A DNA stretch of 64,000 nucleotides from Actinomyces mediterranea (GTDB taxonomy: Bacteria > Actinomycetota > Actinomycetes > Actinomycetales > Actinomycetaceae): the NCBI RefSeq assembly GCF_900155595.1, contig NZ_FTPB01000004.1:248001-312000 (forward strand), in the 5' to 3' direction. The position numbers were made by a program, and so were the translations under genes. Positions 6,356 through 12,465 of the stretch are shown piece by piece. How positions within the stretch are numbered: position 1 is the stretch's first letter; each line of letters opens with the position of its first letter. The notes below the pieces were generated by a model, which worked only from the letters and a program-made list of their open reading frames with translations, searched no databases and had not been told where the DNA came from.

Positions 6356-7942
6356 GTGTTCGGGAATCTATCCGATCGGTTGACCCAGTCCTTCAAGCAG
6401 CTTCGCAGCCGCGGCGTCCTGACAGAATCCGATGTCGACCAGACGATCTCCGAGATCCGTCGCGCCCTCATTGACGCCGACGTTGCGCTGCCCGTGGTCC
6501 GCCAGTTCACGAACGAGGTCCGTGAGAAGGCCTACGGAGCCGCCCGCTCGAAGGCGCTCAATCCCGGCCAGCAGGTCATCCGCATCGTCCACGACGAGCT
6601 CGTCGAGATCCTCGGCGGCCAGACCCGTGAACTCCACTTCGCGGACCGCGGACCCACGGTGTTCATGCTCGCGGGCCTCCAAGGCGCCGGTAAGACGACG
6701 CTGGCCGGGAAACTCGGCAAGTGGTTGCGCGAAGAGGGCAAGACCGTTCTGCTCGTGGCGTCGGACCTCCAGCGCCCCAATGCTGTCCAACAGCTGCAGG
6801 TCGTTGCACAGAGGGCGGGCGTCCAGGTGTGGGCGCCCGAGCCCGGCAATGGTATCGGAGACCCGGTTGCGGTGGCGCGTTCGGGCCTCGCGCGCGCCAT
6901 CGAGACCGGCACGAATGTGGTCATCGTCGATACCGCCGGGCGCCTCGGCATCGACGAGGAGATGATGACGCAGGCGAGGAACATCCGCGACGCCGTCAAC
7001 CCCCACGAAGTGATGTTCGTCCTCGACGCCATGGTCGGTCAGGACGCGGTGAGCACCTCAACGGCATTCCGCGACGGAGTCGGCTTCACCGGTGTCGTGT
7101 TGTCCAAACTCGACGGCGATGCGCGCGGCGGTGCCGCGCTGTCGGTGCGCGGCGTGACGGGCGCACCCATTCTCTTCGCCTCCACCGGTGAGGGCGTTGA
7201 CGACTTCGAGCGCTTCCACGCCGACCGGATGGCGGGCCGGATCCTCGACATGGGAGACGTCCTCACACTCATCGAACAGGCCGAAAAGCGTCTCGACGCC
7301 GAAGAGGCGGAGAAGATGGCCGCCAAGGTCATGTCCGGTGAACTCACGCTGGCCGACTTCCTCTCCCAACTCCAGCAGGTCAAGAAACTCGGCTCGATGA
7401 AGAAGATGCTCGGGATGATTCCGGGGGCTGCGCAGATGCGCGAGCAGATCGAGAACTTCGACGAGCGGGAAGTGGATCGAGTCGAAGCGATCGTCCGCTC
7501 CATGACCCCCGCCGAGCGCGAAGACGTGTCCATCCTCAACGGCTCGCGCCGCATGCGCATTGCGAAGGGATCGGGAACGACCGTCGCTGAGGTCAACGGA
7601 CTCGTCAAACGCTTCGAAGCGGCGAAGACGATGATGGGGCAGATGGGCCAAATGGGCGGCATGCCCGGGATGGGGGCCCTCCCCGGTCAGGGAGGTCGCG
7701 CAAAGCAGAAGGCGAACGCCCGCAAGGCACAGTCCGACCGCAGGAAGATGAAGAAGGCCGGCAAATCGGGTAATCCTGCGAAGAGGCGCCAACAGGAACT
7801 CGAAGCCCTCCTTCCCCCCGAGCAGCGCAAGGGGACAGCGCCCGGATCCGCCTTTTCAGCCGAGCCCGCCGCCTCTGCGGCACGCCCCACCATGGATGAC
7901 CTGCCCGACGACATCAAGCGCATGCTCGGCGGCATGAGGTGA
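6356..7942 (+). CDS. ffh: Signal recognition particle GTPase Ffh
   Basis: Protein component of the SRP; binds 4.5S RNA and hydrophobic signal sequences. The 528-residue product has the N domain (FGNLSDRLTQSFKQLRSRG), the G domain with P-loop LQGAGKTTLAGKL, DLQRPNAVQQL, DTAGRLGID and SKLDGDARGGAALS, then a Met-rich M domain (MGQMGQMGGMPGMG) with the RNA-binding SRRMRIAKGSG segment. GTG 6356 is preferred over an upstream in-frame start because GGGAG lies 6 nt before it and the protein then begins at the conserved N domain. Its last codons overlap the GTG of the amidohydrolase gene. Confidence 0.96.
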   Translation: MFGNLSDRLTQSFKQLRSRGVLTESDVDQTISEIRRALIDADVALPVVRQFTNEVREKAYGAARSKALNPGQQVIRIVHDELVEILGGQTRELHFADRGPTVFMLAGLQGAGKTTLAGKLGKWLREEGKTVLLVASDLQRPNAVQQLQVVAQRAGVQVWAPEPGNGIGDPVAVARSGLARAIETGTNVVIVDTAGRLGIDEEMMTQARNIRDAVNPHEVMFVLDAMVGQDAVSTSTAFRDGVGFTGVVLSKLDGDARGGAALSVRGVTGAPILFASTGEGVDDFERFHADRMAGRILDMGDVLTLIEQAEKRLDAEEAEKMAAKVMSGELTLADFLSQLQQVKKLGSMKKMLGMIPGAAQMREQIENFDEREVDRVEAIVRSMTPAEREDVSILNGSRRMRIAKGSGTTVAEVNGLVKRFEAAKTMMGQMGQMGGMPGMGALPGQGGRAKQKANARKAQSDRRKMKKAGKSGNPAKRRQQELEALLPPEQRKGTAPGSAFSAEPAASAARPTMDDLPDDIKRMLGGMR

Positions 7943-9048
7943 TCTTCACCGGCCGCCTGTTGTGGGCCGAAGCCCCCGATGCCGACTCGTCATGGGTGGA
8001 GGGCGCGTGGCGCATCGACGAGGGGATCATCCGCCGCGCAAACGGAAATGAAACGGCTGATATGTCGGGTTACGCGATCCCGGGCCTCGCCGATTCTCAT
8101 GCGCATATCGCGATCGGAGCTGACGGCCCGGTCGATCGTGCCCAACAGGAGCGCCACCTGCTGGCACAGCGCCGCACCGGCGTCCTTGCGTTGCGCGACT
8201 GCGGATCGCCGCTGGACACATCATGGGCGGATCAGCGCGACGACCTCCCGCGCGTCGTGAGGTCGGGCGCCCATATCGCCCGCCCCATGCGCTACCTGCG
8301 AGGACTGCCCGTCGAGGTGGAGGATCCGCGCGACCTCCCGGACGAGGTCGCGCGCCAAGCGGAGGATTCGAATGGGTGGGTGAAACTCGTCGGAGACTGG
8401 ATCGACCGCTCGAAGGGCGCCGACTCCGACCTCGATCCGCTGTGGCCCGGAGAGGCTCTCACGGATGCGGTCGCAGCGGCTCACGAGGCCGGGGCGCGCG
8501 TCGCCGTGCACGCCTTCGGACACGGCGTCATCGACTCGCTCCTCGAGGCGGGAGTCGACGACATCGAACACGGGACGGGGATGGATGAGGATCAGGCGCT
8601 CGAGGCCGCACGCCGGGGCATCATCGTGACCCCCACTGCACTGCAGGCGGAACTCTTCTCCGGATTCGCCGCACAGGCCGGGCGCAAGTACCCCGCGTAT
8701 GCGTCGACGATGATGCGCATGTACGAGGGGCGACGCGAGCATTTCGCAATGCTGCGCGATGCGGGCGTCACCCTCGTCATGGGCACCGACTCGGGAGGCT
8801 ATCAAGCACACGGGACGATGGGCTCAGAACTCGCCCTGTGGTCGCAGCTCGGAGTGCCCGCCTCTGAGATCATCGATATCGCCACATGGCGCACCCGCCG
8901 CGCCCTCGACCTGCCCTCCCTCTTCGAAGGGGCGCCCGCCGATCTCCTCATCTACTGGGAGGATCCCCGGGGCGATGCGTCGCTCATCGCCTCGCCTTCC
9001 CGGATCATCCTCGCGGGACGCGAAACAGGCAGCGTCGACGTTTCGTGA
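7939..9048 (+). CDS. Amidohydrolase (metal-dependent, imidazolonepropionase/prolidase-like)
   Basis: Amidohydrolase-superfamily TIM barrel, 369 residues. Metal ligands are visible: DSHAHI (HxH, strand 1), the candidate carboxylated Lys in WVKLVGDW, His in VAVHAFGHG, His in DDIEHGTG and Asp in MGTDSGG. The substrate is unknown; related proteins act on cyclic amides or dipeptides. GTG 7939 overlaps the ffh TGA, so the two are translationally coupled. This gene sits between ffh and rpsP, which are usually direct neighbours, so it looks like an insertion into a conserved operon. Confidence 0.85.
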   Translation: MIFTGRLLWAEAPDADSSWVEGAWRIDEGIIRRANGNETADMSGYAIPGLADSHAHIAIGADGPVDRAQQERHLLAQRRTGVLALRDCGSPLDTSWADQRDDLPRVVRSGAHIARPMRYLRGLPVEVEDPRDLPDEVARQAEDSNGWVKLVGDWIDRSKGADSDLDPLWPGEALTDAVAAAHEAGARVAVHAFGHGVIDSLLEAGVDDIEHGTGMDEDQALEAARRGIIVTPTALQAELFSGFAAQAGRKYPAYASTMMRMYEGRREHFAMLRDAGVTLVMGTDSGGYQAHGTMGSELALWSQLGVPASEIIDIATWRTRRALDLPSLFEGAPADLLIYWEDPRGDASLIASPSRIILAGRETGSVDVS

Positions 9049-10003: not shown

Positions 10004-10075
10004 ACGTCACAGCGCCGTATGCGCCAATGCGGCGCCTGTGGTGAAATGGGCGCGACACGTCGAGGAGGCACACGA

Positions 10076-10600
10076 ATGAAGATGACGGCCGGAATCATCG
10101 GACCCGCGCATGGCTTGCGAGGCGAAGTGATCGTGGATATCCGATCCGATGATCCGGACGTCTGGAGTCCGGGCAGCGCCATTGAAGCCGATACCCGGCC
10201 CCCTCGAGAATTGACCGTGAGCAGAACACGCGTCCACAAAGACAGGGTCTTCGTCTCCTTTTGCGAAGTAACGACGCGTGAAGAGGCGGAGGCGCTTCGC
10301 GGCGCCGCCCTGCTTGTTGACGCGCACGATGAGCATGACGCCTGGTACCCGCATCAACTTGATGGATGCATGGCCGTCACCGTCTCGGGAGAAACTCTGG
10401 GGACGGTTGTAGGGCTCCGATTCGGCGCCGCACAGGACCTCCTCGTCGTGTCGACCGACCGCGGTAGGGTCCTCGTGCCATTCGTGTACGCCCTCGTCCC
10501 TGACGTCGATGTCGACGCCGGCACCGTGACCATCGACGCACCCCCGGGACTTTTCGACGATTCCTACATCGATGCGGACGACCGTGGGGAAGAGCAATGA
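10076..10600 (+). CDS. rimM: 16S rRNA processing protein RimM
   Basis: 30S maturation factor that binds S19. The 174-residue product begins [15 protein letters not shown], the RimM N-terminal barrel signature, and has a PRC-barrel-like C-terminal half ([18 protein letters not shown] ... [23 protein letters not shown]). ATG 10076 has an excellent SD GAGGAGG 7 nt upstream. Its TGA overlaps the trmD ATG (ATGA). Confidence 0.93.
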
Positions 10601-11928
10601 GGATCGACCTCGTCTCCATATTCCCCGCATACTTCCAGCCTCTTGAACTGTCCCTCCTCGGCAAGGCGCACGACGTCGGCCTCGTTGACGTCCATATTCA
10701 CGACTTGCGGGACTGGACCCACGACCGCCACCGCACCGTCGACGACACGCCCTACGGCGGCGGCGCCGGAATGGTGATGAAGCCCGATATTTGGGGCGCC
10801 GCCCTCGACGAGATCCTTGCAGCTGATATCGGGTTGCAAGGCGAGCGTGTCCTCGCGATCCCCACCCCCTCGGGCGTTCCACTCACCCAGGCGATCGCGG
10901 AGGATCTCGCCAGGGAGTCGGACCATCTCGTCATCGCCTGTGGGCGCTACGAGGGCATCGATCAGCGGGTGGCGGACCATTATCGAAACCGCGGCATCCG
11001 CGTTCTCGAATATTCCATCGGCGATTACGTCCTCAATGGGGGAGAGGCGGCGGCCCTCGTGCTCGTCGAAGCGGTGAGCCGACTCCTCGACGGTTTCATG
11101 GGCAACCCCGACTCCCTCGCGGAAGAATCCCACTCCGACGGGCTCCTCGAGTACCCGGCCTACACCAGGCCCCGCTCCTGGCGCGGCCACGACGTTCCGG
11201 ACGTGCTGCTCGGGGGCAATCACAAGGAGATCGAGCGCTGGCGGCGCAACCGCTCCCTCGAGCGAACCGCGGCCCGCAGGCCCGACCTCGTCGCCGCCCT
11301 GAAGCACGACCGGCTCGATATGGCCGATCGGGAGGCTCTCGTCAGGTGCGGATGGATCCTCACCGACACTGGTGCGAGCCGCATCGATATCCGCCCGGCG
11401 AGGATCGACGATGCCCCCGCGCTCGCCGAACTCGCCGCGAGGACCTTCCCCGACGCCTGCCCCGACTGCATCGACCCCGAGGCGATCGCCGCCTTCATCG
11501 CTGAAGAACTCAGCGTCGAGGCCTTCACCCGCTATATCGGAGATCCCGCCGGATGCCGCGTGCTCGTCGCCGGAATCGCGGGTCGGCTCGGGGGATACAC
11601 CCTCACCCTCGTCTCAGGCGCCGACCTGCCCGAGGACATGATCCGCCTGCGCTCGATCGACGAGAACGCAGCGTACCTGTCGAAGTGCTACGCGGACTCG
11701 CACTGGCGGGGGAGCGGATTGGCGGGCGCGCTCCTCGAGGCGGCCGTCGAGGACGCTCAGGCGGCCACGGATGCGGCGCAGATCGTCCTGGGAACGCATA
11801 TCTCCAATACGCGGGCGCAGCGCTTCTACAAGCGGCACGGTTTCAAAAGGGGGGGGCAGCGGCACTTCCAGGTTGGCGGGGTCGACAATGTCGATGTCGT
11901 CCTCGTGCGCAAATTCACCGTCGATTGA
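10597..11928 (+). CDS. trmD: tRNA (guanine-N1-)-methyltransferase TrmD fused to a GNAT acetyltransferase domain
   Basis: Residues 1-~255 are TrmD, which makes m1G37 in t[15 protein letters not shown], the AdoMet trefoil-knot motifs [11 protein letters not shown] and [17 protein letters not shown], and the C-terminal helices to about WILTDTG. Residues ~262-443 form a GNAT domain: [16 protein letters not shown], the acetyl-CoA loop [19 protein letters not shown] and the C-terminal [17 protein letters not shown]. TrmD is usually ~230-270 residues, so the 443-residue product is a true fusion with no stop or frame change at the junction. The acceptor of the acetyltransferase is unknown. ATG overlaps rimM; rplS follows after a 180-nt leader. 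Confidence 0.93.
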
Positions 11929-12108: not shown

Positions 12109-12465
12109 ATGCAGAAGATGGACGCAGTCGACGCTGCTTCCCTTCGTACTGACATCCCGGCGTTCCGCGCCGGCGACACCGTCAAGGTGCACGTGAAGGT
12201 CATCGAGGGCAGCCACTCCCGTATCCAGGTTTTCCAGGGCGTCGTCATCGCCCGCCGCGGACATGGCGTGTCGGAGACATTCACCGTCCGCAAGGTGTCC
12301 TTCGGCGTCGGCGTGGAGCGCACCTTCCCGCTGCATGCTCCGACCATCGACCGCATCGAGATTGTCACCAAGGGTGACGTCCGTCGTGCCAAGCTCTACT
12401 ACTTGCGTAAGCTGCACGGCAAGGCTGCGAAGATCAAGGAGTACCGTTCCAGCAAGGCTGAGTGA
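12109..12465 (+). CDS. rplS: 50S ribosomal protein L19
   Basis: Large-subunit protein at the 30S-50S interface. The 118-residue product contains [51 protein letters not shown] and RAKLYYLR, all L19 hallmarks. ATG 12109 has AAGGAG with 5-nt spacing. A terminator-like hairpin follows the stop. Confidence 0.97.

Follow-up and report, generated by a model that had tools for sequence, protein, structure and literature searches.

A TrmD–GNAT fusion gene in Actinomyces mediterranea, and a second fusion of TrmD to a different GNAT in the same order

TrmD, the tRNA m1G37 methyltransferase, is essential in many bacteria and is a drug target. In the window analysed here, a stretch of 64,000 nucleotides from Actinomyces mediterranea (assembly GCF_900155595.1, contig NZ_FTPB01000004.1, positions 248,001 to 312,000; positions below are those of the window), trmD continues into an acetyltransferase of the GNAT superfamily. 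The locus raises the question of whether the two enzymes are truly joined and, if so, what an acetyltransferase does on the end of TrmD. An initial annotation had read the gene as a fusion and had offered tRNA, a ribosomal protein or a small molecule as the target of acetylation. No paper on a TrmD–GNAT architecture was found in a full-text search of the open-licence literature; database annotation may exist.

Architecture of the fusion gene

The gene was located at 10597-11928 on the forward strand as a single ATG-started frame of 443 amino acids with 0 internal stops. TrmD runs into the GNAT without a break, as first described, with PF01746 (residues 22-229, 201.5 bits, cut-off 27.3) followed by PF00583 (residues 314-416, 45 bits, cut-off 20.7). 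Residues 1-235 (10597-11301) form a complete TrmD by both NCBIfam cut-offs (TIGR00088, 240 bits against 195; NF000648, 300.9 bits against 220), with the usual TrmD motifs and a best PDB chain match of 293.7 bits. Most PDB TrmD chains among the matches listed are 218-276 amino acids long (exceptions 308 and 436), compared with 443 for the fusion. The fusion gene is the sole PF01746 match in its own 2.4 Mb genome and lies in a rimM-trmD-rplS neighbourhood.

Residues 236-259 (11302-11373, forward strand) comprise the native C-terminal helix of TrmD (LDxxDRxxLxxxGW) and a short linker. Unfused TrmDs of the order (for example L117 and L120) also terminate in this stretch, and the helix was placed at residues 242-250 in the full-length fusion model, where pLDDT is low (56.2). 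The acetyltransferase domain, here called GNAT1, was assigned to residues 260-443 (11374-11925, forward strand) from PF00583 and an AlphaFold model. At about 184 residues, with the acetyl-CoA pyrophosphate loop RGSGLA at residues 371-376 (11707-11724), it agrees with the domain of some 180 residues and intact loop described initially. One in-frame start codon was found between residues 226 and 275, an ATG at 11320 (codon 242); no Shine-Dalgarno-like stretch was seen by eye just upstream of it, and Met is absent at this codon in most aligned relatives.

The neighbours of the fusion gene are rpsP, rimM, rplS and lepB, which includes both ribosomal protein genes named initially. The stop codon of rimM (10019-10600, forward strand; PF01782, 59.8 bits) at 10598-10600 overlaps the start of the fusion gene, and rplS (bL19; 12109-12465, forward strand, ATG at 12109; PF01245, 167.2 bits) follows downstream. 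The ribosomal operon region also contains an amidohydrolase gene (7939-9048; PF01979, 57.6 bits), immediately upstream of rpsP. The nearest named relatives are Schaalia species (Actinomycetaceae).

A side observation was made in the TrmD half. The residues EES (176-178, 11122-11130) place a Glu at what we take to be the position of Asp169 in H. influenzae TrmD. Glu occupies this site in 102 of the 103 TrmDs of the order set (one was not resolved), and in 19/19, 29/30 and 18/20 of loci L161-L179, L232-L261 and L212-L231, respectively. The five best PDB TrmD chains, presumably mycobacterial, have Asp.

A frameshift or assembly error fusing trmD with a neighbouring gene, a concern raised in the initial annotation, was rejected; no point in its favour was found and it has practically no chance of being correct. 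A frameshift is excluded because many other genomes share the architecture, which is identical in 86 fused GNAT1 genes. An adjacent unfused GNAT gene was considered as a precursor and rejected, since inspection by eye of the downstream frames at 23 unfused loci of the order showed none behind trmD. The GNAT1 profile at E 1e-6 matched nothing in L161-L179, and no in-frame GNAT was found behind the TrmD stop codon in six genomes with alignments past residue 277 (L181-L186).

Distribution, origin and a second fusion

GNAT1 was found fused to TrmD in 61 of 73 TrmD genes examined in the family of the window, in 2/2 in family f12 and in 23/23 in family f13 (one of the latter cut by a contig end). 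The 73 genes are a non-random set made up of best matches, genomes drawn evenly from the order, and genomes with weak matches or none; eleven loci were dropped as repeats (L001, L002, L013, L017, L019, L022, L041, L065, L069, L096 and L098). The GNAT half was matched at E 1e-8 in 187 of 200 genomes of the family, which is not a count of fusions because the match in one genome (G013) lies outside its TrmD (L074, tail of 37 amino acids). Among the 13 genomes without a match, two (G116 and G198) also had no TrmD found.

Two of the 12 family TrmDs without GNAT1 have lost the domain (L074 and L095). The remaining ten (L071-L073, L076, L077, L079, L085, L088, L090 and L097) carry tails of 144-238 amino acids that score -2.6 to 22 bits against the GNAT1 profile, with faint similarity (9.5-22 bits) in four (L071, L073, L076 and L088) and none in six. 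All ten are in genomes of 1.5-2.2 Mb, and other genomes of that size retain GNAT1. In one small-genome genus TrmD is 88-91% identical, against 37-38% for the tail (two pairs). The tails are likely worn-down GNATs. Given these ten tails with little GNAT similarity and the two losses, the second activity is widely retained yet dispensable. In another member (L094, genome G117) a long, repeat-like linker insertion with many T, E, Q, N and H residues separates TrmD from the GNAT and brings the protein to 607 amino acids.

Elsewhere in the order, no GNAT was found on 55 TrmDs from 15 other families or on three further TrmDs of family f17, all with tails of at most 62 amino acids; one locus of the unfused control set (L261) is only a C-terminal piece. 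Outside the order, 20 TrmDs with frames of at least 335 amino acids (L212-L231), picked among the matches listed (281 of 296 phylum-wide genomes with TrmD), were all unfused, with tails of -4 to 61 amino acids. The long frames left out of this set include those of G494, G629 and G713 (f21, the same family as four of those examined), and rarer TrmD–GNAT fusions could exist elsewhere in the phylum.

Standalone relatives of GNAT1 were searched for with a profile of 36 fused GNAT1 domains (A1). Of 80 genomes of the order from families other than f1, f12 and f13 (11 of them f17), 25 contained such relatives, at 160-209 bits. Across the phylum, 11 of 198 sampled genomes matched at E 1e-20, one being that of the window, with seven at 175-204 bits (f5, f17 and f22) and three at 100-113 bits (f30 and f61). 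These standalone counts are lower bounds because the first pass did not score every candidate in large genomes. The genome of the window has no standalone GNAT1, its other GNATs scoring 23-30 bits against A1. Many standalone proteins of the order and of f22 share the signature of the fused domain (TFPLACPP, ELSKCY and LGVNxxNxRAQRFY); unlike the fused form, they lie apart from the TrmD locus in 23/25 genomes (the place of TrmD is unlisted for G237 and G328). GNAT1 may have come from a free-standing acetyltransferase of the PaiA/LcGNAT type in actinobacteria, captured by TrmD and then inherited across most of the family.

Quick trees gave four changes between fused and unfused states for the GNATs and three for the TrmDs. 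A single clade of fused proteins was not rejected by the AU test (p 0.64 for the GNATs, 0.85 for the TrmDs), the constrained trees being likelier. The GNAT tree omits the 10 rows without recognisable GNAT1, short-tail rows such as L116, which a contig end truncates, and six weak standalone rows; the TrmD tree omits 8 near-copies and scores all rows of the window's family as fused, including the 12 without GNAT1. The trees neither prove nor reject a single origin of the GNAT1 fusion. Junctions vary, with the TrmD helix kept or lost; in f13 it is gone in 15/22 tree rows and the GNAT begins within about 5-10 residues of RRPDL.

A locus of f17 presumed to be a control (L175) was found to carry a C-terminal GNAT of its own, here called GNAT2. 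A search with this domain gave TrmD and GNAT2 in one frame in 20 of 23 f17 genomes, the exceptions (G287, G326 and G437) having short TrmD tails, and in the 1/1 genome of f10 (L258, which scores 193 bits against the GNAT2 profile). The loci are L175, L189-L207, L209 and L258; three further GNAT2 matches (L208, L210 and L211, 53-86 bits) are in frames from which TrmD is absent. In the f17 fusions GNAT2 begins about 10-30 residues after RRPDL and the TrmD helix is gone. A comparison of the GNAT1 and GNAT2 profiles gave a shared superfamily at 97.8% probability. The 20 fused GNAT2 domains scored 11-29 bits against the GNAT1 profile, which does not exceed the scores of unrelated GNATs in the window's genome, and two genomes (G215 and G300) hold a free GNAT1 together with a TrmD–GNAT2 fusion. 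Because of this poor match and these two genomes the captures are regarded as separate, and TrmD has apparently been joined to a GNAT at least twice, to two different GNATs, in one order.

Fold, catalytic residues and selection

Structure prediction, suggested initially as a check, was informative for the domain and poor for the whole protein. The AlphaFold model of GNAT1 has a pLDDT of 87.8, whereas that of the full-length fusion has 56.2, with the TrmD half mostly below 50. The best folds for the GNAT1 model were tied, namely 8osp (LcGNAT; Z 23.1, rmsd 2.3 over 174 residues) and 1tiq (PaiA; Z 22.6, rmsd 2.0 over 173 residues). The profile neighbours were LcGNAT (105 bits), PaiA (95.7 bits) and 4e2a (72 bits), the next scoring 39. 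The GNAT superfamily is thus assigned by Pfam cut-off and fold.

LcGNAT, the top profile match and joint top fold match, shares both catalytic tyrosines with GNAT1, and its topology, given as b1-a1-a2-b2-b3-b4-a3-b5-a4-b6-b7 in PMC10416765, is that of the GNAT1 model apart from extra helices. It differs in being standalone, in an identity of about 20% over the fold, and in having Glu92 where the fusion has Tyr360. PaiA, a spermidine/spermine acetyltransferase, likewise shares subclass, fold and tyrosines with GNAT1 and differs in being standalone; the fusion scores 43.4 bits against its family model NF053587, below the cut-off of 250.

Catalysis by LcGNAT is impaired by changes of Glu92 (E92Q), Tyr97 or Tyr142, according to PMC10416765. 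The Tyr97 position of LcGNAT and PaiA, Tyr365 in the window (11689-11691), is Tyr in 86/86 fused GNAT1 domains. The Tyr142 position, a proposed general acid and Tyr411 in the window (11827-11829), is Tyr in 83 of the 85 with a letter there. For the PaiA/LcGNAT subclass, therefore, both catalytic tyrosines are present in the fusion and the general-base Glu92 is absent. That position, Tyr360 in the window (11674-11676, by alignment and entry numbering), is Tyr in 42, Glu in 42, His in one and Asp in one of the 86 domains. All 42 Tyr are in the window's family (42/61), the window included; in standalone GNAT1 the alignment reads Glu in 27/30. On this comparison the clade of the window has swapped the proposed general base from Glu to Tyr, and since this holds for the window and 42/61 family members, mechanism or substrate may have shifted.

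The pyrophosphate loop R/Q-x-x-G-x-G/A is strict in 37 of 86 fused GNAT1 domains, and RGSGLA in the window fits it. The fourth-position Gly is kept in 77 of the 85 with a letter there and replaced in 8. In several f13 loci (L105, L106, L111, L102 and L103) it is replaced (HRTQVA, HRSPVA, HRSSVA, HGTPAA) while both catalytic tyrosines and the remaining signature are retained. Degeneration of this loop alone is frequent in polyamine acetyltransferases of the PaiA/LcGNAT subclass (PMC10416765). GNAT2 has 15 invariant columns over 20 rows, including the loop glycine G94, and its acid tyrosine was read in 17/20 (absent in L202, L204 and L209).

Selection was estimated as NG86 dN/dS in 25 hand-chosen pairs. 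For GNAT1, 17 of 18 pairs without the window were evaluable (one was saturated) and 15 gave 0.02-0.32, two of these fifteen resting on dS above 1.4. The outliers were 0.67 (dS only 0.02) and 0.44 (the half-degenerate pair L080/L081). The TrmD halves of the same pairs gave 0.02-0.21 (one saturated), GNAT2 gave 0.12-0.23 in 4/4 pairs, and one of two pairs of tails without recognisable GNAT gave 0.31. The window and L003 gave 0.17 for TrmD and 0.53 for the GNAT, and the latter value is evidence against the GNAT being strongly constrained on the branch of the window. Judged by its residues, fused GNAT1 looks catalytically active; nothing seen pointed to a domain inactive in all homologues, the other outcome that the initial annotation had named as fatal to its reading.

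Candidate functions of the acetyltransferase half

The fusion is best explained, tentatively, as a bifunctional enzyme whose GNAT1 half acetylates a small, amino-acid-like amine. Its TrmD half would make m1G37 in tRNA, as family membership and its single copy suggest. Joining to trmD would co-produce GNAT1 with the translation machinery and might hold it there, and the fact that TrmD acquired another, different GNAT in a second family suggests that the link was selected and not accidental. A small amino-acid-like acceptor is favoured because the relatives use small amines, LcGNAT canavanine and PaiA polyamines (PMC10416765), because no convincing spermidine synthase was found, and because RimI is encoded separately. 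The search for spermidine synthase (PF01564) found none in the own genome and none convincing in 30 genomes of the genus, in which there were three partial matches of 19.5-25 bits, two slightly exceeding the cut-off of 22.9. The same search was positive in 11/14 known genomes and is blind to polyamine uptake and to the carboxyspermidine route. The convergence on TrmD tells against a small acceptor, in that a tRNA or protein target would explain it no less well.

It is possible, if rather doubtful, that the acetylation target of GNAT1 is a macromolecule located at the TrmD site, such as a nucleoside of the anticodon branch, TrmD itself or a nearby ribosomal protein, with TrmD as the targeting module. 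Two unrelated GNATs sit at the same TrmD C-terminus, in part with short junctions near RRPDL that lack the TrmD helix (15/22 f13 rows and the f17 fusions). In the H. influenzae complex, tRNA bound by one subunit is contacted by the C-terminal domain of the other (PMC5372744). TrmD also carries Tm1570 at its C-terminus in Calditerrivibrio nitroreducens, a natural fusion whose TrmD activity has been measured (PMC11187310). That partner is a SPOUT methyltransferase (PF09936), putatively tRNA 2'-O, where the window has an acetyltransferase; the words acetyltransferase and GNAT are absent from the main text of PMC11187310. The two GNATs on one TrmD end, the tRNA contact and the Tm1570 fusion make a tRNA-borne target a serious rival. 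However, free GNAT1 with the same signature occurs in genomes whose TrmD is not fused to GNAT1, and, among solved structures, the closest relatives of known substrate act on small amines. The ribosomal-protein target offered initially is so far unsupported. Recognition of GNAT1 as RimI was rejected, as the fusion scores 31.8 bits against TIGR01575 (cut-off 86.4) and RimI is encoded elsewhere in the genome (110.1 bits), for which reason bS18 needs no second acetylase. A more specific proposal, rather unlikely as it stands, is a two-step tRNA enzyme that would methylate G37 and, within the same anticodon branch, acetylate a nucleoside bearing an amine; such a modification has yet to be described. 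To our knowledge, no acetylated base occurs at this place in tRNA.

The GNAT half could instead be a structural or regulatory appendage (a stabiliser or acetyl-CoA sensor) or a neutral rider whose chemistry is not needed. The persistence, in genomes of 1.5-2.2 Mb, of the ten tails of 144-238 amino acids that hardly resemble GNAT1 or do not resemble it at all is consistent with this, as are the loss of the general-base Glu in one clade and the replaced loop Gly in 8/85 domains. This reading is unlikely, given that fused GNAT1 almost always retains both catalytic tyrosines, that most pairs show purifying selection, and that there were two independent captures, with the GNAT2 loop glycine also invariant over 20 rows. 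A PaiA-like acetyltransferase of spermidine or spermine, fused for co-expression, would account for the full-length match to NF053587 and for PaiA being among the two best folds. That reading is quite improbable: the match reaches 43.4 bits against a cut-off of 250, and the PF01564 result in the 30 genus genomes lowered it further. Fold does not give the substrate, since LcGNAT belongs to the subclass of PaiA and yet is selective for canavanine (PMC10416765). PMC10267138 also concerns a polyamine acetyltransferase.

With the small amine still preferred, the initial interpretation stands in part. The fusion is real and conserved, its GNAT plausibly active by sequence, and the proposed tie of an acetyltransferase to TrmD gains weight from the second, independent fusion with another GNAT subfamily, while the targets named for it are so far unsupported. 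Two separate captures of a GNAT by TrmD in one order are natural evidence linking acetylation with the maturation of m1G37 tRNA. The lineages also provide a comparative system, with TrmD fused to GNAT1, fused to GNAT2, bearing a tail without recognisable GNAT, having lost the domain, or never fused. If the two-step reading were true, the TrmD C-terminus would have been a repeated carrier for acetyltransferases because their target sits on the tRNA that TrmD binds.
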